DNA from: Carya illinoinensis
Taxonomy: Eukaryota > Streptophyta > Magnoliopsida > Fagales > Juglandaceae
DNA: 64,000 bases
Direction of reading: 5' to 3'
Assembly: GCF_018687715.1 (NCBI RefSeq)
Contig: NC_056758.1
Span: 16,519,501-16,583,500, forward strand
The position numbers and the translations under genes are program-made. This document shows positions 27,858-57,380 of the stretch, piece after piece. Position 1 is the stretch's first letter. Every line of letters starts with the position of its first letter. The notes beneath the pieces were generated by a model. It was given only the letters and a program-made list of their open reading frames with translations, did no database searches and was not told the DNA's origin.

Positions 27858-28002
27858 ATGCTCGAATCCTCTGATGATCAAACCCTACATTTCTTTGAGT
27901 GATTCACATGGTGATCCACACTCATTGCTCAAGATTTGACGAGGCTAAGGACTTTGTATTGCATTCCCGATACCATGGTTCTTAACCTTTTCCCACCGAA
28001 GG
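27858..28002 (+). pseudogene. Antisense extra ORF of Tat-type element, piece 1
   Basis: From an ATG at 27858 a frame with two stop codons leads to DLTRLRTLYCIPDTMVLNL, the usual opening of plant 'putative gypsy type transposon' (Transposase_28) proteins. The frame meets the TSD GAAGG (27998-28002) of the next insertion, and the coding sense resumes at 32175 after it, with one frameshift near the joint. The role of such extra ORFs in Tat-lineage retrotransposons is not known. Confidence 0.6.
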
Positions 28003-30264
28003 TATAACGCCGGTCTTTGTGGTGGGTCCTTTAGAAAATGATTTTAAGAAAATAGACGGGAGTTACGATTCCTTTTGAAATTTTTTTTCCTTTCATAATA
28101 GGATATAAAAGACTTTTTGTTTATAAATAAAACTTATTTTTTAATTTAAAAGGTTATAGCGGAAAATATTAAATTTTTATAATTAAATAACATGTCTAGA
28201 TTTTCGTGCTCTTCCCCTTGGGCTGTGCTTGTCTTGATGTGTCATGCTCATCTTATCCTTGTAATGGACCACATAAAAATTAAAATGAGTCGATAACTCG
28301 TAAGCATTACTTCATACAGTTAAAATATAATAACATAGGTTTTCAGTCATGCATTCATCACTCCATATATATCATCCATAGATATTCAATTCGTTTTAAA
28401 ATGTTGCGAGGTGGGGTTTTTCTTTAAAAAGGGTTTTCTTTCGTAAAACAGTTCCCCACGCTTCGTTGCCTTCATTTCTTAAAGGGTCGGTTCATGCATA
28501 CATCTTTTATTATATACATATATTCTTTTTTATCGCTTTTATTGACTGTAGCACACTGTTACGCCCCGTGTGCTGGGGTTAGTGGTCTTTTGGACCTAAT
28601 TCCGCACGTGGCCACGGGTTGGGAATCCATTTCCATTAGGGTGCAATACTAGGTGTACTACTAGTACTACTTACTTGACATTGCAATCTGTCTAGTCCAG
28701 TCCTTCGGTACCCTTTTCCGTTCATATGGCCGTTACGTATTTTCATATATTAAACATTTAGTCATTTTCATTCATTTCAGTCCTTTACAGTTCTTTCAGT
28801 CCTTTCTTTCAGTTCATTCATAAAAATCATTTAAAAAGTATTGGCTTAAACATCATCTTTCATGGTATCATTTAAAACATCAGTTCATGCATCATTTAAA
28901 GTATCATCTTTCATATGGACATTTTAAAACACTTTCTTCGCGTCATTTAAAGCATTGCTTAAAGCATGAGGCCTGAGCCTTGCATTTCATTTCATGAAAA
29001 TACATACAATACATACTTTGTATACCATCCATTCACATGCAGACACTTACATACTTTGAGTGCGTAAAAAAGGGCTGCTAAGGAGGGCTGTTATGTACTT
29101 ACACTTGAAAACTTATATTTAGCCTTCTTTCTTAAAGCATCTTTTGTGTAGTTTTGTAAAGCATTGTACAAGAAAAGCATTTCATTTTCATTTATTTAGA
29201 AAACTCTAGAAGAATATGAATGCAATATTTACCTGGACTTCATGCCATACTCATTCCATGTAGTCCATTCGTGTGCGTGTCAGATGGCAACCTATATGCA
29301 TACACATAACCTCATGTCATTCTCTATCTAATGCATAAGTAACTATACTAGAAATATAACTACGCTTCACTTGGAACACTCTATCTCCATCTCTGGGTTT
29401 TTACATGCCATTTACTATGCTAAAATCTTTAAAGTCTTATCCCTTAAAGTGAACCTCTGTGATTCATCTTAGGGTTAAGACACTAAAACTTTCGTATTAT
29501 TCTTCTATCAACCACATGTCGATGCATGACTCAGACTGACTAAGTCATACATCCCAATCCTAGATGACATACCCGTTACTATCTTTATGCATCTTAGCTC
29601 ACACTAAACCCTCATTTCCATCCATACACATCACACAGTTTAAAGCTAGCTCTGGGGCTAAAACACTACGTAACCATGCTGAGGATAGATTATCCATTAT
29701 GTATGGTAAATTCATCCCGTACACGTGTCTCACTAGATGCACATGTATCTTATCCCTTTATCACTTAAGATTAACACACTGTCCATTGGTAGCTTGCTTA
29801 TATGAACAAGTACCATACTCCGATACCAACTTGCTCAGACCCGGTCAGTAGGACTCTTCCTACTTTCTGGCTCTATACAAGTTCATCCTTACACTTAACA
29901 AGACAAGACTGCATCCACAATTACACATTTGTCACGTTACGTAGCTCGAGACTAATCTCGAGTTACATCACAACGCCCGTCATACTTCTGCTGCACTATT
30001 CTTACACTTTTTTCATCACTTCACACTTACTCTCAGCCATAAGTTAACCACAAGGTGACACCCATCACCTCGGACTATAGGCCACATCACAGCTATTTTG
30101 GAACATTGTTACACAGTTCTCGACACCACACAACACATTCTACGCTCCTCAACTATGCCATCCCAACCTTCGTGACACTTCGCCTGGTTTATCGTGACAT
30201 TACACAGAGTACACTTCACGTGAACTCTCTTTCATCCAAACTATGCCACGCATCACTATGACGA

Positions 30265-30510
30265 GTGTCACACGGTGCGTCGCCGCACAACATAGAGTAC
30301 GCACCATGTGTACTCCCTCCGCTACATTATGTATTATCATGATGCACACCACACGGTGCACCACTACATGACATGGAGCACATGCCATGTGTACTCCCTT
30401 CACATTACATCACATTACCATTACATCATATACGCCATATGGTGCACCACACCATCACATGGAGTACTCTCAACGTGTACTCCTTCCACAACACAACGCC
30501 GCATTATAAC
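30265..30510. repeat. ~80-bp minisatellite, three imperfect units
   Basis: Units share CACACGGTGC or CATATGGTGC, then ACATGGAG and CATGTGTACTCC, starting near 30270, 30350 and 30435. They lie inside the probable solo LTR. The Ser/His/Thr-rich ORFs here are by-products of the repeat. Confidence 0.65.
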
Positions 30511-31496
30511 TATAACACATGTTTCATACCCATACTCCACAGCATAGTCCACAATACTACACAGTTATGCCTAACACTTCATTATATAGCTACACTTCAC
30601 TTTAGAACTACGCAATGAACTTCACAATACTAACAGCACAGTCTACAACCTATAAACTACTATTTATCATAAATAATATACCATCGATGGGATAACCTGT
30701 GCATTGCTTGCTGCCTGTCATGATTAAAGGCGTCGGAAGAGTCGTACGTGGCGGTTAGCCACGTACAGTGGCTGTCCACCACATAAAGTGGTGAATTGAG
30801 CTTAGGGAAGGGATAGGGGTGGTCTTGGGAGGTTCATGGTGGTCTCGAAATGGTGGTAAAGGGTGGAGTATGGCGGCATGTCGCCATGAACAATGGACCT
30901 AAGAGAGTGAGGGTGCGTGTGAGTCAAGGGAGGGGTTGGAAGTTATGGCCAGGCATGGAGGAGTTTCAGGGAGGTGTGGTAGAGCTCTAGCTGCGAGGTG
31001 GAGGATAGGCCATGAGAGAGTGTGGGAGAGTGAGAGAAGTAGGGACTTTCGTTGGGCATGAAATTGGCTAGGGGAGGTCATGGTGGTTAGGAGATCATGG
31101 TGGTGGTGGTATGGTGGTGTGGGTTGCCGTGTACGGCAGTGCATGGTGGAGAACCCATGCATGTGCATGTGTAGTGGTGCAACAGAGAGGGTGAGAGGTA
31201 GTGGAAGGGAAGACCATGGAAATGAAGCCCATGGAGTGAGGATGTCGGTGGAGGAGCTCGGTGGCCACTTTGGCCGTGTACAGCGGCGCTAGGAGGAAGA
31301 AATGGGTTTTCATACCCATTCGGTTGGAAGGAGGAGGAGAGAGAGTGGGTTGCTGGTAGGACTCACCACTGGTGGGGGTGAACTCACCGGCAGGGAGGGA
31401 AGCTGTCGGAGCTGGCGGTGACTAGTTATGGCCGGTAGTGGAGGTGGCTGGAGGAGGGAAGTGCACGGTGAGGAGAGAAGAGAGAAAGCACGTTAG

Positions 31497-31619
<123 letters not shown>

Positions 31620-32174
31620 TGAGGGAAAAAGAGAGGGGCTTGGATATTTAATTTAGGCCATTCGTTTTGGGATCTACAAAATGATCTAACGGCGAGTTTA
31701 AATACTAATTTGAAAATGTGTAAGCATTTTATTTAAATTAAAATACTGAGAAGAATTAAAATAGAATATTAGTTTATAAAATAATGTTCCTTCATCATTA
31801 ATTAAAATGATGAAGTCTCATTAATCACTTGAAGAGAATAAAACCATCTAAATTAATTTAGAGTTTCCAACATAAATTTAAATCTCATAATATTTTTAAA
31901 TGACTAAAATATTTAAATTAAATAAATTTCCACAATTATAATATTTTTAGAGCTCTTAAAAAATATTATAATTGTGTTATTTAAAAACAAATTTAGTCTA
32001 ATAACACTAAAAATATCACATATAAATATTTCTAAAATATTTAAAATATTTGTAAGTTTTAAAATATTGAACTTGTTTTAAAATCCGCTTGGTATTTTTT
32101 AAAACACGTCATTGAGAATTGACACGTAGAATGAAGCTCGTAACTATAAAAGAAATAAGGAGTGGGTTATTATA

Positions 32175-33544
32175 GAAGGTGCCACTGACAAGGAAGTTTT
32201 TTCGAAGAGACTTGCTTTTCTAGTTTGTGCCCTAAAGCATGGTTTATGCCTTCCATTCTATCGTCCCGTTCGTGATGTCCTCAATTTCTTGGGATTAGCT
32301 CCTGCTCAACTTCATTCACATGCTTGGCGTGTGCTTTTATGCTTGTTTGTGGTGTTTTGCATGGTTCTTGAACCTTTGGGGGAGACGTATCCCAACTTGA
32401 TCGCTCACAAGTTCCTGTCTTTCTACTATGTAAAAGGCTTGCAAGGTAATATTTGTAGCTTCCATGTTTGCAAATAAAGTTTAGTGGCATTTGAAAGCCA
32501 CCATTTGAATGTCAAACAGTGGAAAAAGAAATTTTTCCTTATTTCTGGTCGTGGCTGGGAATTCCCAGCCTCTAAGATGGTCGTACAGGACTATCTCATT
32601 CAGGCTAATTGGAAACAGGTTTTTGATGAGAAGAAGGTCCTTATAGATTTAACTGACTGAGAGCATTCTCATGTCAACATAGTCCTCAGCTTGGCCAAAG
32701 ATAATGAGGATGTCCTGTGGACTGAGATCCTCTTGACCCCTACCAACATTGACTGATTCCTTGTTGTGTTCTACCGTCCCCACATTAGGGGGTGTAAATT
32801 GAAGGTTTGTAACACCTTCTTCTAAGAAAATGCCCGCTTTTATGCCTTCTGAGACTCCTTAAAAACGTCCTTGTTGTATTAAGGGTGAGACACTCACTGC
32901 TTGCTCTACTGAAGATGTTGAGGCATTGTTGATGTTGTTGGGCTAGAGATGGATGATGTTGATTCTGGCATTAATATATGACTATGGGGTGTGGGACGGC
33001 CCCTGCTTCTCCTACTCACATGTCGCCACCTGCATCTCCCAAGCTTGGCGACCTTGATGGGCTCATGGGCCAAGCCCTCATTGAACTGGCCACTACCTTT
33101 GACTTTGATCTTCCCCCCAAGGGGTCAGACTTAGTGGGTATGCTCGTTTTCGAGTCCCCTTCTCTCTTTTCCCTGACTTCAACACTAAGAGATAGCAGGT
33201 TTGAGGCTAACATATATGATACCTTCCTTATGGGTGTTGCCAGGGTCATGGCATCCGAAGTTGTTACTCCTACTAAAGGCAGCACCCAAAGTTGTGTAGT
33301 GGACCCTCTGTCTATGAAGGGCAACACTGATGACCGTGGGGACCAAGGTTACACTTTAAACTCACTCCCTACGACCTTCTCAAGGAGTGATATCCCACCA
33401 ATAGACCATGAAAGAGTCTCCATTCCCTCCCCTTCCCCCTCCTCCTTTGGTGGTGATATGGATTCCTCAACCCCCAAGGAAGGGGGTGGGTCATCTAGGG
33501 AGGGTAAAGTGAAATGAAGAGACCAAGTAGATGGTGACCCTGTC
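32175..33544 (+). pseudogene. Antisense extra ORF of Tat-type element, piece 2
   Basis: The plus strand encodes the core of a Transposase_28 (PF04195-like) protein: CALKHGLCLPFYRPVRDVLN, then LGLAPAQLHSHAWRVL near 32295-32335, and WKKKFFLISG near 32525. Stops near 32478, 32660 and 32755 break it. A Pro/Ser-rich linker frame at 32978-33517 follows. The piece ends exactly at the TSD CTGTC of the nested gag-only element. Protein function is unknown; it lies antisense to the pol of its parent element. Confidence 0.75.
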
Positions 33545-34315
33545 TGTGATGACCCGCTTTTACGTGTATTTTCACTGAAGGGTTGTTTTTATTTTAATTA
33601 ATTTGCGTTTTAAAATTTGTTTTTAATTTAATATAATTTATTTGTGGTTGTGTTTTATTTCTTTTAGTTGTTGTGTGGTTTTAATCTTTTTGGCGGTTTA
33701 GTTTTGTTTCCCGGAATGAGGACTGGACCTCATCTCTTTTCACATCTTTTTCCTTTTTTCTCTTTTTCCTTTTTTCTTTTTCCCTTCCTTTCTTTTTTCC
33801 TTCTTTTTCTTTTTTTTTTCTTTTTCTTTTTCTCTCTTCTCTCTCCCCGATCCGGACCCCCCCGTGTTCTCTCTCTCTCTCCTCCCTCTCCCTCACGCCT
33901 GCGTCACCTTCTCTCTACCCTACCGCCGCCGTCCGGCCACCGTTCGGCCTCCCACCAGTCCCATTCTCTTCCTCTCCCTCCGGTGCACCACCCCACCCAA
34001 ACTCACCCCCAACCGGCCAGCCGTTTGGCCGGAAAAGCCCTCCAAAGCCTCCACGGTTTTTCCTCCGATCCGCCGCCGTCGCTCCACCTCCGGCCACCAT
34101 TTCTTCACCACTTCATCACCGACTCCTTGCCGTCCTAACCCACCCATTTCCGGCCTCCAACGACCACCGGAACAGCTCCTACGAGCTTAGTTTCCGTTTT
34201 GGGTAATCCGGCCATTCCGCCGCCACCCACGGCCGTTCGTCACTTCCAATAGCTTCACAACCATCCCTAGACCATACCCTATCAATCTCGTGTCCTAGTT
34301 TGTCTCCGTTCAAAA

Positions 34316-34359
34316 GTGGGTAATTTATTACCCACGGCAACAGTGTAAATTACACTGTT
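34316..34359. repeat. Two adjacent hairpin-forming palindromes in the LTR
   Basis: GTGGGTAATTTATTACCCAC (9-bp arms, 2-base loop) is followed after three bases by arms AACAGTGTAA and TTACACTGTT with one base between them. Both are conserved without change in the other LTR at 40407-40450. They could fold in DNA or in the LTR transcript. Confidence 0.9.
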
Positions 34360-35054
34360 ACGTTGCTTTTCCTCCGCCGTTTGCAACGCCGCTTGTTTTC
34401 TAAAATTGCCGTATAGCGCTGTAAGTATTTTCCAAACCCTATTTTCAGATTTTAATATATATTGCTCATTCAATTATTTATTGTTGTTGGTTGTTGATTC
34501 CGGACTGAGTCCGAGGAGTTTCGGGGGTCGGATGGATGGAGGACGGAGTTGCTTGTTTATTTGTTTCATGTTGTTTGATTATTTTATTATGCATTGTTAT
34601 GGCATTACATGGTGCATGCACAGGTGTTTGTGGATTTATGTGAAAAGCCGGTGTTTTGGCGTAAGTGTGTTGCGGGTGCGTGTGTATCACGAGCCCAAGC
34701 CGGGATGGGTTATTATCTCGGTGGAGCTCCTCTGGTCACTCGGGAGCGGAATAAACTGAGTGATGTCCCCTGAGTTGTCGAGAGAGATGACGGGAGCGGG
34801 GCTAGGGGATGCTTGGCTATGAACGCGCCGGGCGTGGAACCGGGCATCGCCCTACTCACCGACTCCGTGGCCCTTCGCTGGCGAGGGCTAGAGGATGCTT
34901 GGCTTTCACGCGCGGGAGGCGCGGAACTGGGCATCGCTCGTTAGGTGTCACATGCGTGGTGGTACTCTACGGTATGACACTGGAGCCAGGGTGTGCGGAT
35001 GACCCCTAGGGGAGGTCATGGTGCATACGGTTAAAATTGGATAATGGTTTATGA

Positions 35055-35195
35055 GGCCAAAAGGGACTTTTGGCGTGGGCCAGATGGACTTCTGGCGAGA
35101 TATTGGGCCAAATGGACTTTTGGCGGCCAAATGTGACTTTTGGCGTGTTTTTCAGAAAGGATGTGTTTTTGGGCCAAATGGGTTTTTGGCGTGTG
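35055..35195. repeat. Short tandem word array in the LTR
   Basis: About five imperfect copies of (GGG)CCAAATGGACTTTTGGCG separated by a few bases. The same array stands at 41148-41287 in the second LTR. It contains the inverted pair CCAAA/TTTGG, so each unit can form a small stem. Confidence 0.8.
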
Positions 35196-35659
35196 TGGAA
35201 AAAATTATGTTTTATGGGCTTTGTGCATTGGGCATGTTTCATGCATATTGTTTGAGTCCTATGTGTTTTTATCTGGTAGCGTTTGGGTTTACTTACCTGC
35301 GGAACCATTTGTGGTTCCGTAGCTTTTGGTGCAGGTGATGAGGATGAGGAGGAGGAGGCTGAGCCCGAGGATGCGGCTCCGTCGGGTTGCTGATGATATG
35401 TTTTATATTTGTCTAAAACTGTATTTGTGGTTTTTGTAATATTTTATTTATGTATGTTTTAAACAGCCTGTATTATGTTAAGAAAAAAAATTCTGGTACT
35501 TAGTTATATGACTTTCGTTATCCGCTGCGTTTTTCTTGTGCACACTTGTTGCCTTTGCACACACTTGGCACCCGTCGATGGGATGGTGACCCGGGTTGTC
35601 ACCATCCGGACGTCTCGATTTTCCCGTGTTCGGGCATGGGGAATTGGGGGCGTCACAGG

Positions 35660-35678
35660 TGGTATCAGAGCGGTTTGG
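35660..35678 (+). other. Primer-binding site of the gag-only element
   Basis: TGGTATCAGAGCGGTTTGG starts two bases after the 5' LTR. It matches the complement of the plant initiator-Met tRNA 3' end over its first 12 bases. Confidence 0.85.
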
Positions 35679-35930
35679 TTCTGGGTGAAACCACATGTCC
35701 CGTTGGTAGTACCAGAATGTTTTTAAAATTGTGTTTTAAAATTTATTTTAAGTAAAGTTGCTATTTAACATGTTTTATTTGGTTTATTGATTTGAGCTTG
35801 TTTGCTTGTTTTTATTTATTTAGTTAGGTTATTGCATGCTGGTTTCTTTTGTTTCTGGCTGTATGGTGTTGGTTTTGGTTTTTGGTTTTATGATGGTTTT
35901 ATTTGTTTTCTTAAAGGAGGGTCCAGTAGC

Positions 35931-36881
35931 ATGGTGCAAGCCGGATGCACCTATGAGCGCTTCCTGGCGCATAGGACTCCACACTTCACTGGAAATGAGG
36001 ATCCACTTCAGGCTGGAAAATGGATCAAAGATCTGGAGAGAACCTTTGAGGTGTGTGGATGCGCTGAGGCACAGCAAGTACTCTACGCCAGCTATCTCTT
36101 GCAAGGTACCGCTTCTGATTGGTGGGATACCAAGAGGGTGATGCTGGAATCGGAATTGGGATCTTTCGCTGCGGTGACCTGGCAGCGTTTCAAGAAGGAG
36201 TTCAATGACCGCTTCTTTCCCACATCGGTAAGGAAGCAAAAGGCAAGAGAGTTCTCCAATCTGGTCCAAGGGGGCGCGACAGTGGAGCTGTACGCCCGGA
36301 GGTTCATAGAACTTGAGCGGTTTGCTCCTTACCTTGTCGCCACTGAGGAGATGCGAGCAGATCGTTTCCAGGAGGGGCTACGCCATGACATACGCCGTAC
36401 GGTGGTCAGCCATCGGATATCCACTTTTCAGGAATTAGTGGATGTGGCCACCCTGGTGGAGCGGGAAAATAATCTGAGTGTGGGCTCCCCTCCAGGGCAT
36501 AAGAGGCGGAGTTTTTCTGGTGAAGGAAGCAGCTCGGGTTCGCCCCAAAAATTTGTTCAGCGGTACGGAACTCGACCTCAAACGTCCTCGGGTGTTCGTA
36601 TAGGAGGACGGGTGCCTATTTGTGGAGCTTGTAATAGAGCTCATGAGGGCGAGTGTCGGATGAGTAGTGGACCCCAGTGTTACCGGTGCGGTCAAGTGGG
36701 ACATATTGCTCGGGATTGCCCCGTCAGAGTTCAAGGAAGCCGTGGAGGTAGACACGGTGGAAGAACCAACCCGAGACAAGCAGTGCAAGCCCGGGTTTAT
36801 GCTGTCACATCCGGAGATGTGGATGATGAGACACCAGCGACTCAGAATGCTGGAGTCATGGCCGGTATGAGTCTAATCTAA
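35931..36881 (+). CDS. Intact gypsy Gag, 316 aa
   Basis: The ATG at 35931 (MVQAGCTYERF) is preferred over the upstream in-frame ATG at 35802, because the 43 residues between are hydrophobic leader translation without Gag character. The Retrotrans_gag core runs from about residue 20 to 170 (YASYLLQGTASDWWD; EFNDRFFPTSVRKQKAREF; ELYARRFIELERFAPYL; ELVDVATLVERE). Two Cys/His motifs follow: CGACNRAHEGEC and a canonical knuckle CYRCGQVGHIARDC. Gag forms the cytoplasmic particle that packages element RNA. The frame ends at a stop 38 residues or so after the basic RGGRHGGR stretch, and no protease or pol follows. An open gag in an otherwise empty element suggests selection on gag or very recent insertion. 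Confidence 0.9.
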   Translation: MVQAGCTYERFLAHRTPHFTGNEDPLQAGKWIKDLERTFEVCGCAEAQQVLYASYLLQGTASDWWDTKRVMLESELGSFAAVTWQRFKKEFNDRFFPTSVRKQKAREFSNLVQGGATVELYARRFIELERFAPYLVATEEMRADRFQEGLRHDIRRTVVSHRISTFQELVDVATLVERENNLSVGSPPGHKRRSFSGEGSSSGSPQKFVQRYGTRPQTSSGVRIGGRVPICGACNRAHEGECRMSSGPQCYRCGQVGHIARDCPVRVQGSRGGRHGGRTNPRQAVQARVYAVTSGDVDDETPATQNAGVMAGMSLI

Positions 36882-39658
36882 TCATTCGTGATGAATGCCT
36901 TGTGTGGTTTTGTTTTGTTTTATATATATGTTATCGAGGCTTAAAGAGAATGGCATGATCTGGGTGATCTTTTAGGGAAGTAGAATAATTGAGTTCTTTG
37001 GTTCCGTGGAGTTTATGAAATGGTCTTTAATGTAGTAGGTTGTAAGTTCAACAAATTTCGATGTTAGATTTTATGAAGTTTCTACAAGTTTTAAAGTTTG
37101 GGGCCTTATAGATTTTAGGAATATAAGTTTATGGTAATTAAGGTGATAGGTTCGACAAGCTTTGAGAGGAAATAATTAAATTTCGAGTTTTAGATTTCGT
37201 GATTTGGATGAGTAATTTGGTGGCAATTGAGGCTTTAGATTTTACAAGCTTTTAAGGTGAATGATTTGGATTAAAACCACCAATCTTGAGAATTTCAGAA
37301 AATGATTTATTATCTATTAATGTTTTAGAATTTGGAAGATTTGGGAGTCGATTTTTCTTTTATAGGGATGTAAGTTCTTTGATCTTAGAAGTTTCGGAAG
37401 ATGATTCTTATTTGATTTAAGGTTTTAGAATGGTAGAGTTGAAGGACTGGTTGATAATAAGAATTGAGTTCTTAGTTTTACAGACTTAGTGCTGTAGCTT
37501 GATCTACTCTAGTGAGTGATTAGTTGTAACCATTAAAATGGAGTTGTTTCGAGTTGAGTTATTGATATGAAAATTTTTCTAGAGTAGATTCCTTTGAGGA
37601 TTGGAAGTAATGATCTAGTTCATGTATTTCTTTGAGGATTGAAGATATCGAACTAGTTTAGAAAATAATTATTGTTAACTCGAGGTTGTAGTAATAGATT
37701 TTAGGAAATGATTTTATCGGTTAGAAAGAAATAGATCCATCGAGGTTTTGGAAACAATAGTTTAATTGTTGGTATTGAATTCGACTGAAGTTGAGACCTC
37801 ATGTTCGGGAGACTTTTAGGAACGGATTATTAGTAGGTTTAAGGTCATTTTCAGTATAAAGCTTTAAGCGATAGCTATTTGCTGATGTTAAGGGTATAAG
37901 TTAAGCAAATATAGGAATGATTCATGTTGATTTGCGGATATAAGTCGAGATGATGGAAATAGTGGTAATAGACTATTTGTGTGTTGGAATGACTATTCGT
38001 TTCGGCTAAGGACGTATGAGATCGACACGTGATAGTGGTGAATAGATTGGAGTGTTCAGTCGAAACGTGTTACTCAATGGTATGTTGGTTGGCAATAATT
38101 GTTATAGCTCGAGGTTATAGTGATAGGTTTTAGGATTGATTCATACCGAGTGAGGATAATAGATGATGCAGGTTTTAGAAAATGAATTTTTGTTTATTTT
38201 GAGGATAAGGTACGGATGTTGGAAATGGAAGTGATGGATCACTTATCCGTTAGAATGATTATTGATCTTAGCTAAGGGGTACATGAGATCCATTTATAGT
38301 GGTGGTAAGAGTGTATGGATTTCGGAGAGTACAAATCCTAGTCTCTTTTTGGCTTTGAGTTGTTTGGTAAGTGAATGGAATGTACAATTGAAGTGGGTTA
38401 CCAATTGGAGTGATGGTTGGCATTAATGGTTGAGTCTATCTTCAAGAATTAATTGTGACTTGAGGTCACACAGGAATTTAAATTGGTGAGGCTATACTTA
38501 TCTTTGGAGATCAAGTATCTAGTTGGGAGAATTGGGGATATGGTTATATAGCTTGAAAGGAGATCGTTAGGTCACCATGTGTGGAGTATGAAGTAATGAA
38601 TCTTGGAAGTTGAAACCTATGCATCAAAGGTGGGTAGCATGATCATATGTATGAGGTAATAAAACATTAGGATTCATGAGTGTTGTTTAATGGTTTTGAT
38701 GGATTGAAGATTTGAACAGTATGGCTTGTCTTGAGAATTTTTTGTGAAGTGCTATTGAAGGAATTAGTTGTGCTAAAACTAAAGTTTTTGAGGGTATAAG
38801 TAGGTGGGTGAGTTACCAAGAGCGTTTTGATTATGTCTAGGTGAAGTCAATGGGAGTTTATAGTGAGCTAGTTATTGCAAGATTAGATATTATTCAAAAT
38901 ATAGGTTATGAGCTTGAAGTGTGGGATATCGGATAGAGGTTATAGGCGCCCTTGTTGGTTGGCGGGAAAGGACTTGGGCCTTTTGGAGATGTTCCTTATC
39001 TTTAGAAGAGACAGGTGTATTTTGGGGATGATGTTATATGTTTTCAAATTAGGGCCTGGAGGTTGATTAGTACTGGTTCTGTCATCAATCAATGGATGTA
39101 TTTTGCGGAATGTTGGTTTTCGATTGGGGCAGCAATGGCCAACTGAGGAATGAGTGGAGATTTGAGGTTTTTGGAGGTATATGATTTTCTATGGAAAAGT
39201 GATAAAGGTCTTATTATGATTAGGTGTGGCTTGAGCTTATACTTCATGATATTAATTTTGAGGATATAGCCTTTATGTATTTTGGTGAGTTATCAGAGTG
39301 TGCGCGAAAGCGTGATTTTTGGAGATTCTTAGGAGTTCAAATTTTGTGTTGATGTTGAGGATTTAGTAGTGATTCGAAGTTTTAATGGAAGATTAATCTT
39401 TTGGTCGTACAATTTGGTTTATTGATGGTTAATTTTGGAGGTGGCTATTAGGTTACCAAGGTTGGAAAAGGATGAAAATTCGGAAGGTAAAGCAGAGGCG
39501 TCGTCGATATTAGCAATTTATGATGTGAAGTTAATAACCATTGGATTTGTTGGGAGTTGTCGTTGATATGTATCTCTCAAATATGTTCGGAGTTGTATGT
39601 TGTATCTGTTTGGCGCTGATGGTTGATCTTGCAAATTTCGAGGACGAAATTTGTTTTT
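36882..39658. other. Non-coding internal region of the gag-only element
   Basis: About 2.8 kb where pol would be expected. All six frames are closed by frequent stops and no RT, RNase H or integrase word is visible. The composition is G/T-rich on the plus strand with many 'gattttag/gaggtt' words, unlike decayed pol. It ends in TTTCGAGGACGAAATTTG and the purine tract. Confidence 0.8.
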
Positions 39659-39671
39659 AAGGGGGGAAGGA
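39659..39671 (+). other. Polypurine tract of the gag-only element
   Basis: AAGGGGGGAAGGA directly precedes the 3' LTR start TGTGATG. It is the expected primer for plus-strand DNA synthesis. Confidence 0.85.
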
Positions 39672-41749
39672 TGTGATGACCCGCTTTTACGTGTATTTTC
39701 ACTGAAGGGTTGTTTTTATTTTAATTAATCTGCGTTTTAAAATTTGTTTTTAATTTAATATAATTTATTTGTGGTTGTGTTTTATTTCTTTTAGTTGTTG
39801 TGTGGTTTTAATCTTTTTGGCGGTTTAGTTTTGTTTCCCGGAATGAGGACTGGACCTCATCTCTTTTCACATCTTTTTCCTTTTTTCTTTTTCCCTTACT
39901 TTCTTTTTTCCTTCTTTTTCTTTTTTTTTCTTTTTCTCTCTTCTCTCTCCCCGATCCGGACCCCCCCGTGTTCTCTCTCTCTCCTCCCTCTCCCTCACGC
40001 CGGCGTCACCTTCTCTCTACCCTACCGCCGCCGTCCGGCCTCCCACCGGTCCCATTCTCTTCCTCTCCCTCCGGTGCACCACCCCACCCAAACTCACCCC
40101 CAACCGGCCGGCCGTTTGGTCGGAAAAGCCCTCCAAAGCCTCCACGGTTTTTCCTCCGATCCGCCGCCGTCGCTCCACCTCCGGCCACCATTTCTTCACC
40201 ACTTCATCACCGACTCCTTGCCGTCCTAACCCACCCATTTCCGGCCTCCAACGACCACCGGAACAGCTCCTACGAGCTTAGTTTCCGTTTTGGGTAATCC
40301 GGCCATTCCGCCGCCACCCACGGCCGTTCGTCACTTCCAATAGCTTCACAACCATCCCTAGACCATACCCTATCAATCTCGTGTCCTAGTTTGTCTCCGT
40401 TCAAAAGTGGGTAATTTATTACCCACGGCAACAGTGTAAATTACACTGTTACGTTGCTTTTCCTCCGCCGTTTGCAACGCCGCTTGTTTTCTAAAATTGC
40501 CGTATAGCGCTGTAAGTATTTTCCAAACCCTATTTTCAGATTTTAATATATATTGCTCATTCAATTATTTATTGTTGTTGGTTGTTGATTCCGGACTGAG
40601 TCCGAGGAGTTTCGGGGGTCGGATGGATGGAGGACGGAGTTGCCTGTTTATTTGTTTCATGTTGTTTGATTATTTTATTATGCATTGTTATGGCATTACA
40701 TGGTGCATGCACGGGTGTTTGTGGATTTATGTGAAAAGCCGGTGTTTTGGCGTAAGTGTGTTGCGGGTGCGTGTGTATCACGAGCCCAAGCCGGGATGGG
40801 TTATTATCTCGGTGGAACTCCTCTGGTCACTCGGGAGCGGAATAAACTGAGTGATGTCCCCTGAGTTGTCGAGAGAGATGACGGGAGCGGGGCTAGGGGA
40901 TGCTTGGCTACGAACGCGCTGGGCGTGGAACCAGGCATCGCCCTACTCACCGACTCCGTGGCCCTTCGCTGGCGAGGGCTAGAGGATGCTTGGCTACGCA
41001 CGCGTGGGAGGCGCGGAACTGGGCATCGCTCGTTAGGTGTCACATGCGTGGTGGTACTCTACGGTGTGACACTGGAGCCAGGGTGTGCGGATGACCCCTA
41101 GGGGAGGTCATGGTGTATACGGTTAAAATTGGATAATGGTTTATAAGGCCAAAAGGGACTTTTGGCGTGGGCCAGATGGACTTCTGGCGAGATATTGGAC
41201 CAAATGGACTTTTGGCGGCCAAATGTGACTTTTGGCGTGTTTTTCGGAAATGATGTGTTTTTGGGCCAAATGGGTTTTTGGCGTGTGTGGAAAAAATTAT
41301 GTTTTATGGGCTTTGTGCATTGGGCATGTTTCATGCATATTGTTTGAGTCCTATGTGTTTTTATCTGGTAGCGTTTGGGTTTACTTACCTGCGGAACCAT
41401 TTGTGGTTCCGTAGCTTTTGGTGCAGGTGATGAGGATGAGGAGGAGGAGGCTGAGCCCGAGGATGCGGCTCCGTCGGGTTGCTGATGATATGTTTTATAT
41501 TTGTCTAAAACTGTATTTGTGGTTTTTGTAATATTTTATTTATGTATGTTTTAAACAGCCTGTATTATGTTAAGAAAAAAAATTCTGGTACTTAGTTATA
41601 TGACTTTCGTTATCCGCTGCGTTTTTCTTGTGCACACTTGTTGCCTTTGCACACACTTGGCACCCGTCGATGGGATGGTGACCCGGGTTGTCACCATCCG
41701 GACGTCTCGATTTTTCCGTGTTCGGGCGTGGGGAATTGGGGGCGTCACA
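39672..41749 (+). repeat. 3' LTR of the gag-only gypsy element
   Basis: Near-identical partner of 33545-35657. The most visible differences are small deletions in the T-rich and CCGGCC-rich parts (39880-40060) and scattered single-base changes, many of C-to-T or G-to-A type. Confidence 0.95.
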
Positions 41750-41754
41750 CTGTC

Positions 41755-42650
41755 AACATATTTGAGTGTGTCAGCCCCATGGACAAGGGCATGTCCATGC
41801 CTAAGGGAGAAGTTCTAGCCACCTTCTCTACGCCCTTGATGTATTCTTTGGGAAGAACCCATATCGAGGGGCAATGAGCCACAACAAGAAGGGTTGAGGG
41901 GCCTTCTCACCTGCATTCCTCTCCCCCAGATGGAGCAGTAGTGGAAATGGTTCATCATTTGAGAAGTTTTCTGTCTTTGGTATGACATTGCTAGCTTACT
42001 AGCATTTTCTTTTACACTCGTACCTCTTGCCTTATTTTATCCTTGTGTCTTGTAGAGTGTGAATGACCTGGCAGCTTGGATTGTGGCTAATCGCGCAACA
42101 TTGGAGTCAAAATTTCACACTAGGCAAATGTTTGCTTTCTTTGCTAAGAGGGAACTTGGTCAGTTGCTAGCTAAGAAAACCGAGGTGGAGTCCTACCTAG
42201 AGCAATCTGATGGGTACATTCACTCTTTAGAGAGCGAGCTCGAGCTTCTTCACGATGAAGCATCTGAGCTCCACAGTGAGCTACTTCACACCAAGTCCAC
42301 CAACATGCGTAATAGTTTTGCATTGCAATTGGTGGAGTATGATCGTGATTCTGCTTGCGCCTAGTTGTCTCGTATGGGTGGAGAGTTGAGCTCCCTTCAA
42401 CAGTTGTTGGCTGCCGCTGAGCAATGATGCTCGAGGTCCACCCAAACGTTGGCTTCTTCTGAAAATACTTGCGGGCAACTTGTCCTTGAGCTTTCAGAAG
42501 TGAAGACATCGTATAAGAAGGCTCATAGGCAATTTGGCCTTAAGTTGTTAGAGATGAAGGGATCTTACGAGGATTTGTGCAACAAGCATATTGCCTACAA
42601 GAAGGACATGGAAGAAGCAGACACCAAATAGGACAAAATGAACCAATCCC
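41755..42650 (+). pseudogene. Antisense extra ORF of Tat-type element, piece 3
   Basis: The coding sense resumes directly after the TSD CTGTC. An intron-like break, GTATGACATT...TTGTAG at 41980-42055, precedes SVNDLAAWIVANRATLESKF. A long coiled-coil region follows (YLEQSDGYIHSLESELELL; 42059-42364, then 42449-42631) with stops near 42362, 42427 and 42630. Coiled coils after the Transposase_28 domain are normal for these proteins. The piece ends at the left end of the nested hAT element. Confidence 0.7.
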
Positions 42651-42835
42651 TAGGGTTGTAAACGAGCCGAGTTCGAGTGAGCCTGGGGAGTGCGAGCTCG
42701 GCTTGTTCACTACTCGAGTCGAGCTTCGGCTTGCCGAGCCTATGAGCCACTTCGAGCTTGGCTTGTATAGTAGGGAAATGAACTCGAGCTCAGCTCGAGC
42801 TCGGTTATGTTAATGAGCCGAGCCCAAGCTCGGCT

Positions 42836-43146
42836 CGAGCTCGGCTCGTTTATATCAAAATCCCACTAATTAAATTATTTATATAAACATATAAAATTAT
42901 AAAATTAAAATAAATGCATCAATACTGATAACAAATTAGTCGAGCTCGGCTCGTTTATGTCAAAATCCCACTAATTAAATTATTTATATAAACATATAAA
43001 ATTATAAAATTAAAATAAACGCATCAATACTGATAACAAATTAGTCGAGCTCGGCTCGTTTATGTCAAAATCCCACTAATTAAATTATTTATATAAACAT
43101 ATAAAATTATAAAATTAAAATAAATGTATCAATGCTGATAACAAAT
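42836..43146. repeat. 105-bp tandem repeat, three units, in the hAT end
   Basis: Units starting TCGGCTCGTTTAT at 42841, 42946 and 43051 are nearly identical. Each carries one GAGCTCGGCTCG word, so the array multiplies a likely transposase-binding motif near the element's left end. Confidence 0.95.
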
Positions 43147-44767
43147 TAAATACAAATTTACATTAAGAGTATTATGGCTATGGACTTATGGTACAATATT
43201 AGACGAAATTTTACATCTTAATGGAACAAGTGAATAAAAAAATTAATTACAACAATAAATTATGAAATAATAGACATTATATTTCAAAACAAAAAATGGG
43301 CTGTCAAATGACAAAGTCCTCAGTCTTCATGGAATCATGAATGGAGCCAGCCAGAAATCTTGACATTGTTGCCCTGCATACACTAATACACTAAAACTTT
43401 GGTGTTATTTTTAATCCCTTGCTCAAGTACTATTAACTTAGCAATACTGTCAAGGAATATCCCACAGAAAATGCAAAACTTAATTTGCCGTGAAAAATCA
43501 ATATCATATCTCTAACAAGTTACACAATACAATTATACAAGCAATATCATAAATAAATATGTGCATTAGGGATTTAGACAAGTTTTGAAATCTGATATCA
43601 CCATGACAGTCACGTAAGTCAGCAAGTTTCCAAAATCTGATAGAAATATGTGTATAAGTGATTCAGCCAAGTTACCAAATGCATTATGCAGTTACCACAG
43701 AACAGATCCAAAACAACGACCCAGCAATAGGCAATAGCCAATAGGCATGACTCATATCAGCCAGACAACAAACTGTGTGGTAGACAAATTGACAACTTCA
43801 ATGGGCACACACATAGAAAATACTCAAAACTTAATACTCTCATACCAGCCACAAAATATCAATACAAAATAGATACAAAATGCAGTTTGAGATAGTTACT
43901 AGCCACAGGCCCACAATACTCAATACTCAATAGTCAATAGGCAACATACTCTCATTCTCATACCATTAGTAGTTACCAAATAAGTTACCAAAGAAGTTAC
44001 AAGTTTATAACAAGTTACCAAAGTTCAACAAAATCAGCCAGACAAACATATAGATGGCCAACTACAGTGTCCAAAACAAATGTTCACAACAAGTTACCAA
44101 AGCTTGAACTTAATCTCATTCTTCTAACTGCAGACTGCAGTTACCAAAATTTAGGAAATTCACAATGACAGGAAGTTACCAAACTTATACAAAATCTGAG
44201 TTCACGTAAGAAGTTAACAAGTTTCCAAACTTGAACAAAATCACCATGACAACCTACGCACACTGATCCAATAAAAAAACATTGATATAATTTTTATTCC
44301 CTTACAAAATTATTCAAGTACTTTTAACTTAGTAATATTGTCAAGGGATGATTGCAATGCAAAATTTAATTTGCCATTTAAAGTAAATCAAGGAAATCTG
44401 GATGGTGAGGAGTTAGAACTTAGAAATTACCTTAACTATCATGATTCATATTATCCTAAACAAAATCAAATAGAACAACCAAACTGTCCAAATATTACAA
44501 AGTAAACTGTCCAAATATCATATAGCAAATAATGTAGACTGAACAAAAAAAAAAAAAAACCAGATAAAACAAGAAAACTGCCCAAATGCTCCATTTTTTC
44601 AACATGCTAAAAAAATAGAATGTAAGTCTGTATGGGCCTATTGCTGTGGCAAGAGAATATGAGTTTCTGATGGAACATCATCTGTTGACAAGAAAAAAAC
44701 AGTAGTTAGTATTTTTGTAAATAAATTAATAATAGTAACTATAAAATAGTATAATAGCAATAGGCAA

Positions 44768-46679
44768 TTAAAATAAATAAAATATACTTACAGAATTTGT
44801 GGATAATCTTTTAAGCCCATATAATGCTCTAACCCAATTAGACCCACGTAACAACATCTGGATAGTTTCAGTCTTCAATGAAGCTCTATGAGAATCAATG
44901 ACTCTGCCTCTTGCGCTGAATGTTGATTTTGAGCTAACTGTGGTAATTGGAGTAGCCAAAATATCTTGGGCCAGTTTAGACAAAGCTCGAAACTTGAGAC
45001 TATTTGTTTTCCACCATTCCAAGGCATCAAAACTTGCATCTGAACCCTTTTCACAAATATAAATACTCTGCTCTAAATAATTGTCCAGTTCTGATTTACT
45101 AGGCTACACGGTATCAACACTTCTAACAAAAGATTTAAATAATGACTGGCCACTCTGCATGCTTCTCCCAGACTCAACACTTGAGAAAGAACCAGATACA
45201 TTCATTCGAGCATTATCTTGCTCTCTTTGTGCCTCAAGAGTTGAATTGTATTCATGAACATACTCATTATATAACTCAAGCAACACAGCAGAGACATGAT
45301 CAATATTCTTAGCAGCCTCCAGCCTGTGATAAATTAAAGGAAAACAAAACTGGATCAGGACCATTTTGAATCTAGGATCTAACACCGCAGCAATTAACAT
45401 CAATAGATTACACTCCCCCCAATATTTGTCAAACTTAGCACTCATTTTTCTTACTATTGATTTCATGTACTCATTCTCATCTCTACTCTTCTTACCTAAG
45501 ATATCCTTCATTCTCCAAATTTCAAAAAGAAATAAGTTTGATGTTGGGTAATCACTTCCAGATACAATATTTGTGACTTCATTGAAAATAGCTAATAGTT
45601 GACAAACATTTTCAACTTGCCCCCATTCTTCAACAGTTGGAACCCATTCAAAACATCTATCTCTATCACCATATCTAGGAAAAACTTCTTTGAACTAAAT
45701 TGCAGCATCCAACATCCGAATGGCAACATCATTAGAACTAACATTGTCAACAGTAATTGAACTAATTTTATTCTCAATCCCCCAATTTTAGAAACACTTT
45801 TCCAAAGCATCAGCAATAAGAAAGCCAGTATGTGGAGGTGGCACATTACAAAAGTTCAAGACACGCCTCTGAAGATGCCAATCAGAGTCTATAAAATGAC
45901 ATGTCACTACCATATATGAAAGTTTTTGACAAGAAGTCCACATGTCAGTTGTGATATGAACATTATTCACATGTTTAAGCAAAGCCCTTAACTTTGTCTT
46001 TTCATTCTCATAAGTTCTCATGCATTCTTTCTTTGCAGCAGCCCGAGACATTTTTTCCCAATATGGAGTGTTTGCACTCATGAATCTATTAAATACCACA
46101 TGTTCCATTAAAGAGAATGGATATTCATGGTAAAGTATCATATGAGAGGCAAGCTCTCGGACCCTATTACGATCATAGGTAAAGTTTGAGACAGTGAAGC
46201 CACCATTTGCCTCCTTAGACTCAACTGCTAAGACTTTTTATTTTTTCTTAGACCCCATGTATGGCAAACAGGTCAGCAGGTGCCTACGTAATGTAGTTGT
46301 AGAACTTGAGCAAGAAGCTTTAAATAACGTTTTACACCACTTATATTGAGGCTGTTTAACCCCATCTCTATCAATTTCATCAAATCCTTCCATACATCAG
46401 AAGTCCTCTTTCTTTTTTTTTTCTTTCATAGGCTACTGTTTGAACTTATGTGGAAGGGCCCTCAGTAGACACAGTATTAGGGGCCTGAGAATTTTGAGCA
46501 GTGTCTCTATCATTATCAGATATGGCCTCTACTAAGCTAATCCCAACAGAGTTTTCATTTTCATACTCCTCTACCGGATCAACATCATTCACTGGATCAC
46601 CCATTTGGTGGGATCTAATATTTTGTAAACATAAAACTAGAAATATATAATAAGCATATAAACACTGACCAGAAATCAA
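44768..46679 (-). pseudogene. hAT transposase (RICESLEEPER-like), broken
   Basis: Minus-strand pieces in order: acidic N-terminus (46679-46446); a BED-finger remnant near 46370-46270 (KWCKTLFKA then TTTLRRHLLTC, first Cys apparently lost); the catalytic region beginning near 46141 (HVNNVHITTDMWTSCQKLSY, the conserved TxDxWTS word); a middle part at 45846-45592; MKDILGKKSRDENEYMKSIV (45511) with LDPRFKM; and the C-terminal hATC dimerisation domain ILATPITTVSSKSTFSARGR at 45022-44768. Stops and frame changes separate them (for example near 45105 and 45695), although some gaps could be introns. No complete frame exists, so the element is probably non-autonomous today. Confidence 0.85.
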
Positions 46680-46689
46680 AACAACCTTT

Positions 46690-46940
46690 CAACTTGGTGG
46701 CTCAAGGTGCTACCAGAAGGCAAGGATACTAAAAGATGTTAAAGTAAAAACAATTTCACAATAACAGTTTTGTTATATAGCCCTGCCTTGATGGCTCAAT
46801 GTGCCTCCAAAAGGCAAGGCTGATATAGTTGATTTAATTCAACTAAAACATATGTTAAAGTCAAAGTAATTTGACTTGAACATTTTTAGTATACAATCTT
46901 GCCTTAGTGGCTTGATGTGCCTCTAGAAGCAATGCACCTC
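46690..46940. repeat. ~110-bp minisatellite, three imperfect units
   Basis: CTTGGTGGCTCAAGGTGC (46692), CTTGATGGCTCAATGTGCC (46787) and CTTAGTGGCTTGATGTGCC (46911) head similar units that include AGAAGGCAAGG-like and TGTTAAAGT words. The array lies upstream of the hAT transposase pseudogene. Confidence 0.7.
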
Positions 46941-47023
46941 AACAACATAAACATAGAAGAAACTGGATAAAACTTGTCAACAAAAACATATTAAACACAA
47001 TACCATTTCATACTTGTAATTAG

Positions 47024-47530
47024 AACAGAAACACAAAACAGATTGGAACAGATTAATCAAGAAACACAATTTTATGGCATAATTAAATACTTGAAGCAAG
47101 AACAATGTATAAACATTTATAATCACAAAACAGATTCAAGAAAGTATATTTAAGTACTTGAAATTAGAACAAAAACACAAAACATATTGAAACAGATTAA
47201 TCAAGCAACACAATTTTATGGCATAATTAAATACTTGAAGCAAGAACAATGTATAAACATTTATAATCAACCAAAACAGATTCAAGAAAGCATATTTAAG
47301 TACTTGAAATTAGAACATAAACACAAAACAGATTGGATAAGAATTAAGATGAATCAAGTAACACATGAAAAAGATGACAACATTAAATACTTGAAGCAAT
47401 CACCATATACAATCCTTTATAATCAACCAAAACAGATTCAAAAAAGTATATTTAAATACTTGAAATTAGAACATAAACACAGTTACACAACTACAAGACA
47501 GATTGTAAGAGATAAATCAACCAATACATG
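47024..47530. repeat. ~145-bp tandem repeat, about 3.5 units
   Basis: CACAATTTTATGGCATAATT occurs at 47065 and 47209, with a related unit from about 47359 and a partial one after 47460. Each unit carries TACTTGAA(G/A), CAGATTCAAGAAAG and ACATAAACACA words. The 115-aa Lys/Gln-rich ORF here is an artefact of the repeat. Confidence 0.85.
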
Positions 47531-49845
47531 TTAAATAAAACATGCGCCACTACTTAAGGCCAAAATCACCATAGGATCATATTAATCAACCCAAATATGA
47601 ACAATAAAGCATTATTAAATAGTTCAAGCAAGAACATAAAGCATCATTAAATAGCAATTAACTTGAGAGGCTGAGAGAACTCACAGTAGACTATAAATTT
47701 TTCTTCGAGCACAACTCAGTAGGCAAGATGATTAGGCAAGCAGCAAGCTCAGATATAAAAGCTCAAGCTAGACTACAAGTTCAAAAATTGTAAGCAATAG
47801 CAAAATAACCAAAACATGAAGTTAACACTTAAAGGCCTAAGGTCTAAGTTCTAACAGGGCACTATTACAAAATAAAAGAAAAAAATAAAAATAAAACATA
47901 AACTTAACAATCAAAGTGATGGACAACCAAAAAAGTCATAGTCTCAGTGTCTCACAGTTACCAAAATTAGCATATACGACTGCTGAGTGATCACAATTCA
48001 TGAATGACAGTGTACTTAGATGATTTCATGTAGATCTATTGTGTAAAAATACCACAAATCACAATATGAAAAAGAGTTAGGATAGAACCAGAAATGGGCA
48101 TCGAAAATAGTTAGATAAAAACTATAACTAGATAAGATCAATCAAATCTGCCAACATTCTCAACCAAATGTGTAGAAAAATAAAACTAAATTGGGTAATC
48201 GACTCGTAGATGGACGAATCGACGAACCAAAGAACCACAAACTACAAAATTAGGGAAACAGTGGTTTGGAGTCATAAATGCATGCATTTAATGACCCATT
48301 TGTCGAGGACCGGCTACTTTCTCAGAGGCTGAGATTACAGCCATGGTTCCCCTCTAAAATGGCCGCCAACTGCATCTGCTAGGGTTTCTAACAGACTACA
48401 GAAGCAGCCATTTTCACTCGAGGGCTCGAGGACCCTCGAGAACAAATGCTGCTCAAATGCACCAGACAAATCAATTCCTATCAAACCGAATGATAGATTA
48501 AGATGGCATATAGGAGGTAACTAGTAATTGGTGTAACCATGTAAGCATAAGAGATTCAGAGAATGGATAACAGGATAAGAAGCTAGGGTTTCTCGATGGG
48601 TCTGAGACTAAGAGGAAAGAATTGAGAAAGTGAAGCAGCAAGGCCGCAAGAGTGAAATTTCACTTGGTGAAACGTGAAACGGCACAGTAGTAGAAGACTC
48701 AGGAAGTGTTGCAACCCTAGGGTAAATAATTAGATAAAACAAATCCAACAGCTCCCAAGTCCCAAGAAAAGTAATAACATATCCAACGGTTGAAATCAAT
48801 CTTGCTTTAATCGGTTCTTTAATTAAATTTATACTAGCATAAAAAGTATATTTAAATATTATTCTATTAAAAAAAATACTATAGTCTATGCATTATAATT
48901 ACAATACATGTTAATTTTTTTATATTATAATTTTTATAATTAGCAAGTAGTGACTGTAGTGCTGTAAAAAAAACTATATTTATTTATAATATTTAATTAT
49001 ACTATAAAATTGTCTAACATTATATTTTATCAAACATTGTCCAAATTGGTACTCATAATATAAATTTATAGTTATATTAATTAGTATAATATAATAATAC
49101 TATATACTAATACCGTATATTAACCAAAAAGAGTATTCTATTTTAGAAAATATTATACTCTATAAATTATAATACATGTTAATTGTTATATAAAATAATT
49201 TTTAAAACCAGCAAGTAGTGTTGCAAATTCATAGAATATATAATGATATAATCTAAGAATCATAGGTGATAAGTATTTAATAATTATGTTATGATAGATT
49301 AATAAAAATATTGTAAATAGAATGATATAATTATGAGTGATAAGTTATAGGCCAGTAAGTTATGACTATAGCTTATAGCCTATAGCCTAGAGCCTTATTA
49401 GCCTATAAGCATAACTTCTTATATGACATTTCACTATTTGATAAGAATAAGATAAATATATCAATATAATATATTAATATTATAAATTAAATATATAAAC
49501 TTATAGTATATGTAGAAGAAAATGTTTAACTATAAGTCACTATAATTCTATATACATAATTAATAATAAATATATAATTATTGATTATTATATATATTTT
49601 ATATTTTACTATATATGTATAAATATATACGAGTCAAGCTCACGAGTCGAGTCGAGTTTCATACGAGTATATTCACGAACATTAATCGAGTCGGTCGAGT
49701 TTTATACGAGTTTTTATTGTTTAATAATTGAGTTTATTTCTGTGTTTACAAATGACCCATTTAATATTCGATTCGAGCCGATTTCGAGTTTATTCGAGTT
49801 GAATTCGAGCTGCCTGTCGAGTAGCCTGTTCATTTTACAGCCCTA

Positions 49846-50200
49846 CACCTAGATACAAAAGTGAAGGAGCAGGGGAAGAGACTATCAGAGCTGGAATCAG
49901 AATTGGTTGCTTCAAGGAGCGAATTGGTCTGTTTATCTCCACAACTGGTGGTGGCCTGGGCAGTTAGGCATCAGGGCTTCAGATATGGATATGGGTCTGG
50001 CATGGCCCACTTACGATCTCACTTGCTGACGCATCCTCAGACTGACTTGAGGTGCTAGGACCTTGACAACTTCAGACCTGTGGAGGTCTCATGCCAGGTT
50101 GTGGATGCTTTGGGGCATAATATAATGCCCGATGCCTTCTTATCTACGCCTTCACCCTTGAAGCCTCCGACAGCTCCACTTTCAAGAAGATTTTATTTTT
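49846..50200 (+). pseudogene. Antisense extra ORF of Tat-type element, piece 4 (3' end)
   Basis: After the hAT right end the plus strand again encodes coiled coil (KRLSELESELVASRSELVCL) and then a GFRYGYGSG stretch and SHLLTHPQTDL, the usual C-terminal part of Transposase_28-type proteins. A stop at 50056-50058 and more near 50200 close it. The 79-bp array begins about 120 bp downstream. Confidence 0.65.
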
Positions 50201-53300: not shown

Positions 53301-54024
53301 AATTAATTATTAACCTTAGATAATATTTTTTAATGAGTTAGTTACATAATATACATTAATAATTCACTTAGTTTTAGTTTCATAATTTAAATAATTTTTT
53401 TATCAATTTATTTGAAAATAAAAAGAAGAAAAAATAATAATAATTGGATCGGACCAAACCAGACCAATAGCTACCGGTCCGGTCCTTATGGATGTTTAGT
53501 CCGGTTTAGGGAAAATGATGGATCGAAAAATTGTTTGGGGAAAATGATGAATGAAATTTTTCGGTCCATCATTTTCCCCAGACCGGACTGATTTACACCC
53601 CTAACTTTAATGGCTAAGTGGGATTTTGGGGGGTGGGGGGATCGTGGGGTTTTCTTACCTCTGCACCCATTGGCTCCACTACGAGTTTTTGGACTTGATT
53701 TTGATGGCTAAGTAGTGGGTTGTGGGGTCTCTCGACCTCCACTCCCATCGGCTCCACTATGAGTCTTTGGACTTGACTTTTTGTGGTTTAGTAGGGGATC
53801 ATGGGGTCTTCTGACCTCCATGCCCATCAACTCCACCGCATGTCTTTGTATTCAACTTTTGGTGGTTGTGTATGGGGGTCATGGGGTCTCTTGACTTCTA
53901 CGCCCATTGGTTCGCTATGAGTCATTAGACTAGACTTTTGGAAGTTGAGTAGGGTGGTCATGGGGCTTTTGACCTCTACACTTATCGACTCCACTGCGAG
54001 TCTTTGAACTCTACTTTGGTGGCT
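50320..54024. repeat. Satellite-like array of ~79-bp units, about 40 copies
   Basis: The word GAGTCTTTGGACTCGACTTTGG (first 20 bases typical) recurs every 78-80 bp, for example at about 50590, 50669, 50747, 52067, 52145 and 52223. Each unit also contains GGCTAAGTAGGG, GGGTCTCTTGACC or GGGTCTTCTGACC, and CCACGCCCATTGGCTCCACC. Units differ at many positions, so the array is not freshly homogenised. Because 79 is not a multiple of 3, the ORFs through it are not proteins. It stands between the 3' end of the minus-strand gypsy pol (54105) and the antisense ORF (50200), the place where Tat-lineage elements are known to carry tandem repeats. Confidence 0.95.
53032..53603. mobile_element. hAT-type MITE inside the 79-bp array
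   Basis: It begins CAAAGGTGTAAGCCGGTC and ends GACTGATTTACACCCCTA, giving imperfect inverted ends (AGGTGTAA against GGGTGTAA). It is flanked by ACTTTGGT (53024-53031) and ACTTTAAT (53604-53611), an 8-bp TSD with two mismatches that is itself part of the 79-bp unit. The inside has 'gaccggaccg/ggtccggtc' words near both ends and an AT-rich middle, with no coding sequence. Confidence 0.8.
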
Positions 54025-54104
54025 GTGACACTGGGGTGGGATGCGCAAGTTGAGCAACTATCTACCTTTATTGATCTTGTTATATTGGATACATTTTAGA
54101 AAAG

Positions 54105-57290: not shown

Positions 57291-57380
57291 CTTTAGGGGG
57301 TAGGCGAGGTAGTCATTGTAGATTTCTTACCCCTTCTATAAAAGGGTAGTGAAGGGACTCTATAGAGTAGTGAATCCATC

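Follow-up and report, generated by a model that had tools for sequence, protein, structure and literature searches.

Antisense open reading frames (ORFs) have been described in retrotransposons of the Retand type, which belong to the Tat clade. Of recently active Retand clusters, 97% are reported to have antisense TRP28 ORFs and about half to have tandem arrays, and the TRP28 proteins are suggested to bind DNA and to regulate the element (PMC11963269). A second, extra RNase H separates RNase H from integrase in Retand elements, 23% of which contain Transposase_28 (PMC6317226). In maize, the antisense ORF gene23 of Grande is transcribed from its own promoter (PMC7264820). Here we describe a locus of this kind in pecan, Carya illinoinensis. 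The window analysed is a stretch of 64,000 nucleotides, positions 16519501-16583500 of contig C7 (NC_056758.1), and the genome with which it was compared is a 674-Mb assembly of 17 contigs. A first-pass annotation, made from the letters of the window, had read four pieces of the plus strand as one antisense ORF of a transposon, split by three insertions. We conclude with high confidence that the locus is a Retand-type element whose antisense ORF was split by three later insertions. By its sequence the host, on the minus strand, is a gypsy element of Tat/Retand type that has decayed; its left edge lies near 26,995.

Like Retand (PMC11963269, PMC6317226), the pecan host has an antisense Transposase_28-type ORF and an array between pol and the 3' long terminal repeat (LTR), as well as an extra RNase H. 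Unlike Retand in print, the pecan copy is decayed and broken by insertions, its gag end and 5' LTR are not within the window, and its ORF has a probable intron. The ORF lies between pol and the 3' LTR and antisense to gag-pol as in maize Grande (PMC7264820), but gene23 is transcribed whereas the pecan ORF is known here from sequence alone. Soybean Gmr9/GmOgre minisatellites likewise form an array of variable length between coding region and LTR, but the element is an Ogre, not of the Retand type, and its repeat units are different (PMC3305785). Programs that join nested fragments again have been published since 2008 (REANNOTATE, PMC2672092); as in the nested elements that it treats, an old element is cut by younger ones datable via LTR divergence, but the part cut up here is an accessory antisense ORF. 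Transposons nested in one another, antisense ORFs of the Transposase_28 kind and arrays of this sort have each been published already, and the locus is a clear but ordinary case. It provides a worked case of a broken accessory ORF recognised by copy comparison where direct domain search misses the cut-off. It also adds Retand-type elements with Transposase_28-type ORFs for pecan, Carya and Juglans being unnamed in PMC11963269.

The pieces of the antisense ORF, all on the plus strand, are piece 1 (27858-28002), piece 2 (32175-33544), which holds the Transposase_28-type core, piece 3 (41750-42650) and piece 4 (49846-50200), the last being placed by its frame and by collinear copies. They are separated by insert 1 (28003-32174), insert 2 (33545-41749) and insert 3 (42651-49845). 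The order of the pieces was tested by blastn against seven other copies of the same genome (L002 to L008), piece 3 being compared with fetched copies only. All four pieces occur in order and on one strand in five of the seven (L002, L003, L004, L007 and L008). L006 has pieces 2 and 3. L005 has pieces 1 and 2 and a portion of piece 3, and alongside them lie extra piece-1 and piece-2 matches. The five full copies give 15 gaps at the junctions, of which 14 measure 1-56 bp. The insert-free site could be aligned in seven copies for junction 1, in six for junction 2 and in five for junction 3; a single GAAGG stands at the junction-1 site of L003 and a single CTGTC at the junction-2 site of L007, the remaining copies having substitutions at the GAAGG and CTGTC sites. 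Collinearity with uninterrupted members of the same genome had been set beforehand as the test able to refute the single ORF, and it was found piece by piece.

Piece 2 occurs at no fewer than 63 places of the genome including itself (40 of 102 candidates scored), piece 1 at 16 and piece 4 at 10. The adjacency of pieces 1 and 2 was counted over 15 piece-1 places and, for piece 2, over 28 of the 62 places other than itself. In 14 of 14 other loci piece 2 comes next after piece 1. The distances range from 6 to 329 bp and never approach 4.2 kb; unaligned query lies within the largest two, of 307 and 329 bp. Segmental copies of one rearranged locus could give the same order, but the identity of piece 2 across the other copies, 69-79%, disfavours them.

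The frames of the longer pieces are in general distinct from their alternatives. Piece 2a has 2 stops in the 193 codons of its chosen frame and 8-15 in the alternatives; for piece 3b the figures are 3 (198 codons) and 5-19, for piece 4 they are 1 (115 codons) and 4-11, the alternatives being the other five frames in each case. In piece 2b the chosen frame has 2 stops versus 2-17, one minus-strand frame giving a tie, and in the short pieces 1 and 3a the stop counts are not distinctive. Between about 32755 and 32972 piece 2 shifts frame, and every plus frame is closed there; with this stretch excluded, the pieces as read contain 11 stops. When the target duplications are allowed for, the phase agrees at junction 2 and disagrees at junctions 1 and 3, the latter with or without an 8-bp duplication. 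Thus the earlier claim that excision restores coding order stands for the order, but two of the three junctions are out of phase: the reading frame is not restored, and no open frame is implied. A protein-database search with piece 2 alone and with the contiguous read-through gave zero relatives at the cut-offs.

The family of the ORF was examined through its core. At least 43 loci of the genome exceed the PF04195 (Transposase_28) cut-off (150 scored of 473 candidates), and 12 above-cut-off loci, hand-picked and non-random, were fetched. Piece 2 matches 12 of 12, with E values from 4.5e-25 to 7.7e-11 (25-kb set); in the same comparison no match below 0.3 came from five shuffles and none below 0.1 from the reversal. 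Piece 1 matches one Transposase_28 locus, L038 (E 0.002), directly upstream of its piece-2 match.

From left to right the host consists of the left edge, the antisense ORF, a tandem array of ~78-bp units and pol with the extra RNase H. The decayed pol (54031-57326) is on the minus strand, and the ORF pieces, already called antisense in the first-pass annotation, run antisense to it. The reverse transcriptase (RT) (55916-56473, minus strand) is of the gypsy type and exceeds the cut-off (RVT_1, E 3.7e-20, 73 bits), as does the extra RNase H (about 55013-55333, minus strand; RVT_3, 6.5e-11, 42.7 bits versus a cut-off of 21.6). The latter sits, as in Retand, between the RNase H (55523-55828, minus strand; best E 9.7e-05) and, on its left, integrase remains (rve, 0.0015), both of these neighbours scoring below their cut-offs. 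A possible protease (56907-57326, minus strand) is without Pfam match. The antisense ORF lies between pol and the 3' LTR, as judged by its position in the other copies; its identity is taken from the 12 Transposase_28 loci.

The 3' LTR and the leader of the antisense ORF occupy 26995-27857 on the minus strand, the inner end of the LTR being unplaced. Their outer limit is an edge of similarity: that to L021, L022 and L023 begins at window 27002-27014, and the three copies start with TGTT at the point aligned to 26995. A segment of this left part (27011-27256) is found again beyond a pol fragment in L029. Comparison of the window with itself revealed no LTR pair for the host or for insert 1, the sole pair being that of insert 2. 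The array spans 50389-54027 and is interrupted between 53031 and 53637 by a fourth, small insert resembling a miniature inverted-repeat transposable element (MITE), at 53041-53611; the ends of this insert are approximate, its end repeats and duplication being roughly read. Array then pol, in the same orientation, are present in four of the five other copies with the right-hand side fetched, and the array varies across copies from about 0.15 to 4.4 kb. Scans of viral contigs using RT, piece 2 and gag gave no matches.

Several results weigh against a Retand-type host with a single split ORF. In L008 a stretch of 701 bp at the junction of pieces 2 and 3 is left unaligned, piece 2 of L007 is interrupted by a break of ~600 bp particular to that copy, and the 9.9 kb fetched from L025 contain a small amount of array but no pol. 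To these are added the low scores of RNase H and integrase in pol. Insert 3 is without target duplication, its 8-bp flanks being different (CCAATCCC / CACCTAGA). Tested directly against PF04195, piece 2 reaches 17.8 bits versus a gathering cut-off of 26.2, and the family scored in just one of six other copies, there too below the cut-off; 0 of 5 controls matched (four shuffles and the reversal, from nine controls made). We therefore name the ORF “Transposase_28-type”. The Transposase_28 likeness first proposed thus falls short of the cut-off in the direct search, but is recovered through the above-cut-off loci that piece 2 matches. Finally, pieces 3b and 4 match 0 of the 12 Transposase_28 loci, so that it is the core that ties the ORF to the family. 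These last matches missing, and the direct domain evidence being limited to piece 2, the four pieces could be fragments of different elements lined up by chance. We consider this very improbable, given the four-piece order kept among the copies, the empty sites and the constant neighbourhood of pieces 1 and 2. An origin of the pieces in different families was likewise considered, and is ruled out by the collinear copies and the empty sites.

Within piece 3 the frame moves from 41755+3k to 42056+3k across 41980-42055. This interval is a probable phase-0 intron of 76 nt on the plus strand (GTATGA...TTGTAG), supported by the passage of the frame and by the splice sites. It is in place in five of the six copies examined, the window counted. 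Both splice sites are canonical in L003 (76 nt); L007 has a canonical donor and first acceptor, then 45 more bases; L006 has AA instead of AG and L004 has GC instead of GT. L002 has a deletion at the intron place, and the matches of L005 and L008 end short of it. Since conservation in four copies fails to separate the intron (identity 0.68-0.82) from the exons (0.72-0.82), the intron is argued from frame and splice sites. In exon 3b the differences are fewest at codon position 2 and most at position 3 in four of four copies, which hints that the protein was once under selection; in exon 3a this order is absent.

A tentative proposal, to which we give slightly less than even chances, is that a short spliceosomal intron has been kept in the antisense ORF across old copies and marks the expression of this ORF, now or once, as its own spliced gene. 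Such an intron would outlast every round of reverse transcription, because splicing would not act at that place on the genomic RNA, which is of the opposite strand. The word intron is absent from PMC7264820 and PMC11963269. A literature search by titles and abstract starts, with subscription papers mostly beyond its range, listed none that deals with an intron in an ORF of this type. If the intron is true, antisense expression of such elements is directly testable in RNA-seq.

The three inserts differ in nature. Two of the three gaps have the perfect 5-bp target duplications previously noted. Insert 1 (4172 bp) lies between GAAGG at 27998-28002, with which piece 1 ends, and GAAGG at 32175-32179; insert 2 lies between CTGTC at 33540-33544 and CTGTC at 41750-41754, with which piece 3 starts. 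The junctions, read directly, uphold the insert limits proposed earlier except that 32175-32179 and 41750-41754 are duplications and not insert.

Insert 1 is one copy of a unit present in high number, with at least 39 other places at 80-84% identity (40 scored of 1801 candidates). One of them, in L019, aligns over 28005-31390 and 31586-32174 and stands alone between its own 5-bp duplication GTTCA. It begins with TGTAACG and ends with TTATTATA, while in the window the ends are TATAAC...TTATTATA. Thus of the features of a solo LTR, as which insert 1 had been tentatively annotated, the 5-bp duplication is present in both complete copies inspected and the TG...CA ends in neither. We consider insert 1 a likely solo LTR, and name it “solo-LTR-like” because of its ends. 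These ends would also suit some other non-coding mobile unit of about 4.2 kb. We regard this as unlikely in view of the 5-bp duplications, of the lack in insert 1 of long direct terminal repeats and of an initiator-Met primer-binding site (PBS), and of a longest stop-free stretch of 129 amino acids (aa). In L019 short PBS-like words are found at 3703 and 8440, not directly after the end of the unit at 4333. Insert 1 also contains a perfect (GA)58 microsatellite at 31500-31615.

Insert 2 (8205 bp, plus strand) is a gypsy element that is gag-only as far as looked, in agreement with the first-pass annotation. Its 5' LTR (33545-35657) and 3' LTR (39672-41749) form a pair in self-comparison. The 5' LTR is followed at 35660 by a PBS, TGGTATCAGAGC, which we take to match initiator tRNA-Met. 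The gag frame (35802-36881), whose start codon is unplaced, contains Retrotrans_gag and zf-CCHC. Then comes a C-poor spacer (36882-39671) without recognised pol: stop-free stretches after gag are at most 82 aa, and the two scanned among the 11 of at least 45 aa gave no family. The LTRs have 23 differences in 2077 aligned columns (44 gap columns excluded), i.e. a divergence of 1.1% (Kimura two-parameter distance 0.011), which corresponds to 0.43 to 2.2 million years at assumed rates of 1.3e-8 to 2.5e-9. The spacer has 8.6% C, and its first 1019 bases are present at 39 or more other places at 87-99% (40 scored of 1133 candidates). Insert 2 thus appears to represent a family that is young, gag-only and constant in its non-coding spacer. 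The C-terminus of its gag, AGVMAGMSLI, is similar to that of a Carya protein, P0006 (AGAMAGMGLT), while in relatives such as P0017 and P0018, from an alignment of 11 of the 34 relatives, the protein goes on from gag to protease and RT. This suggests a truncation before protease shared by the gag of insert 2 and P0006.

Insert 3 (7195 bp, minus strand) contains the domains of a hAT transposase, Dimer_Tnp_hAT (44771-45103, 4.8e-22) and hAT-like_RNase-H (45107-45694, 3.5e-31), both on the minus strand, and short end repeats, TAGGGTTGTAAA / TAGGGCTGTAAA. The earlier assignment to hAT is sustained by these features but not by a target duplication, and we use “hAT-like” because the 8-bp duplication is missing. 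At junction 3 about five bases present in L003, L004, L007 and L008 (four of the five copies) are missing from the window. Since L002 is also without them, their loss may predate the insertion, and alone it does not explain the missing duplication. Near the left end of insert 3 are three 105-bp tandem copies (42835-43149, 96-98%), and a 144-bp repeat occupies 47011-47481.

The junctions and the nest were read from assembled sequence. An assembly artefact is nevertheless scarcely credible: two junctions carry target duplications, and the insert ends agree with family ends elsewhere, both being marks of insertion and not of misassembly. For the split Retand-type element the following history can be proposed. 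At some remote time a Tat/Retand-type gypsy retrotransposon came to lie here by insertion, its gag-pol being on the minus strand. Its stretch from pol to the 3' LTR held the ~78-bp array and the antisense Transposase_28-type ORF, as comparison with relatives in the same genome shows. The copy has decayed via stops and frameshifts. The solo-LTR-like unit, the gag-only gypsy and the hAT-like transposon entered the antisense ORF, as junctions and empty sites show, and a small MITE-like element entered the array. Intact relatives would express the ORF from an antisense transcript, and its product may, as suggested for TRP28 proteins, bind DNA and regulate the element; the host copy is presumably without function now.

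Other features surround the host. Beyond the end of its pol lie copia remains (58000-63560, minus strand, extent by eye) with RVT_2 (8.3e-11), SH3_retrovirus (1.1e-13) and zf-CCHC (4.5e-05). To the left, a 747-aa stop-free stretch (23644-25884, minus strand) resembles by eye a leucine-rich-repeat receptor-like protein, and ARAGORN predicts a tRNA-Ser (anticodon act) at 19876-19962 on the minus strand.

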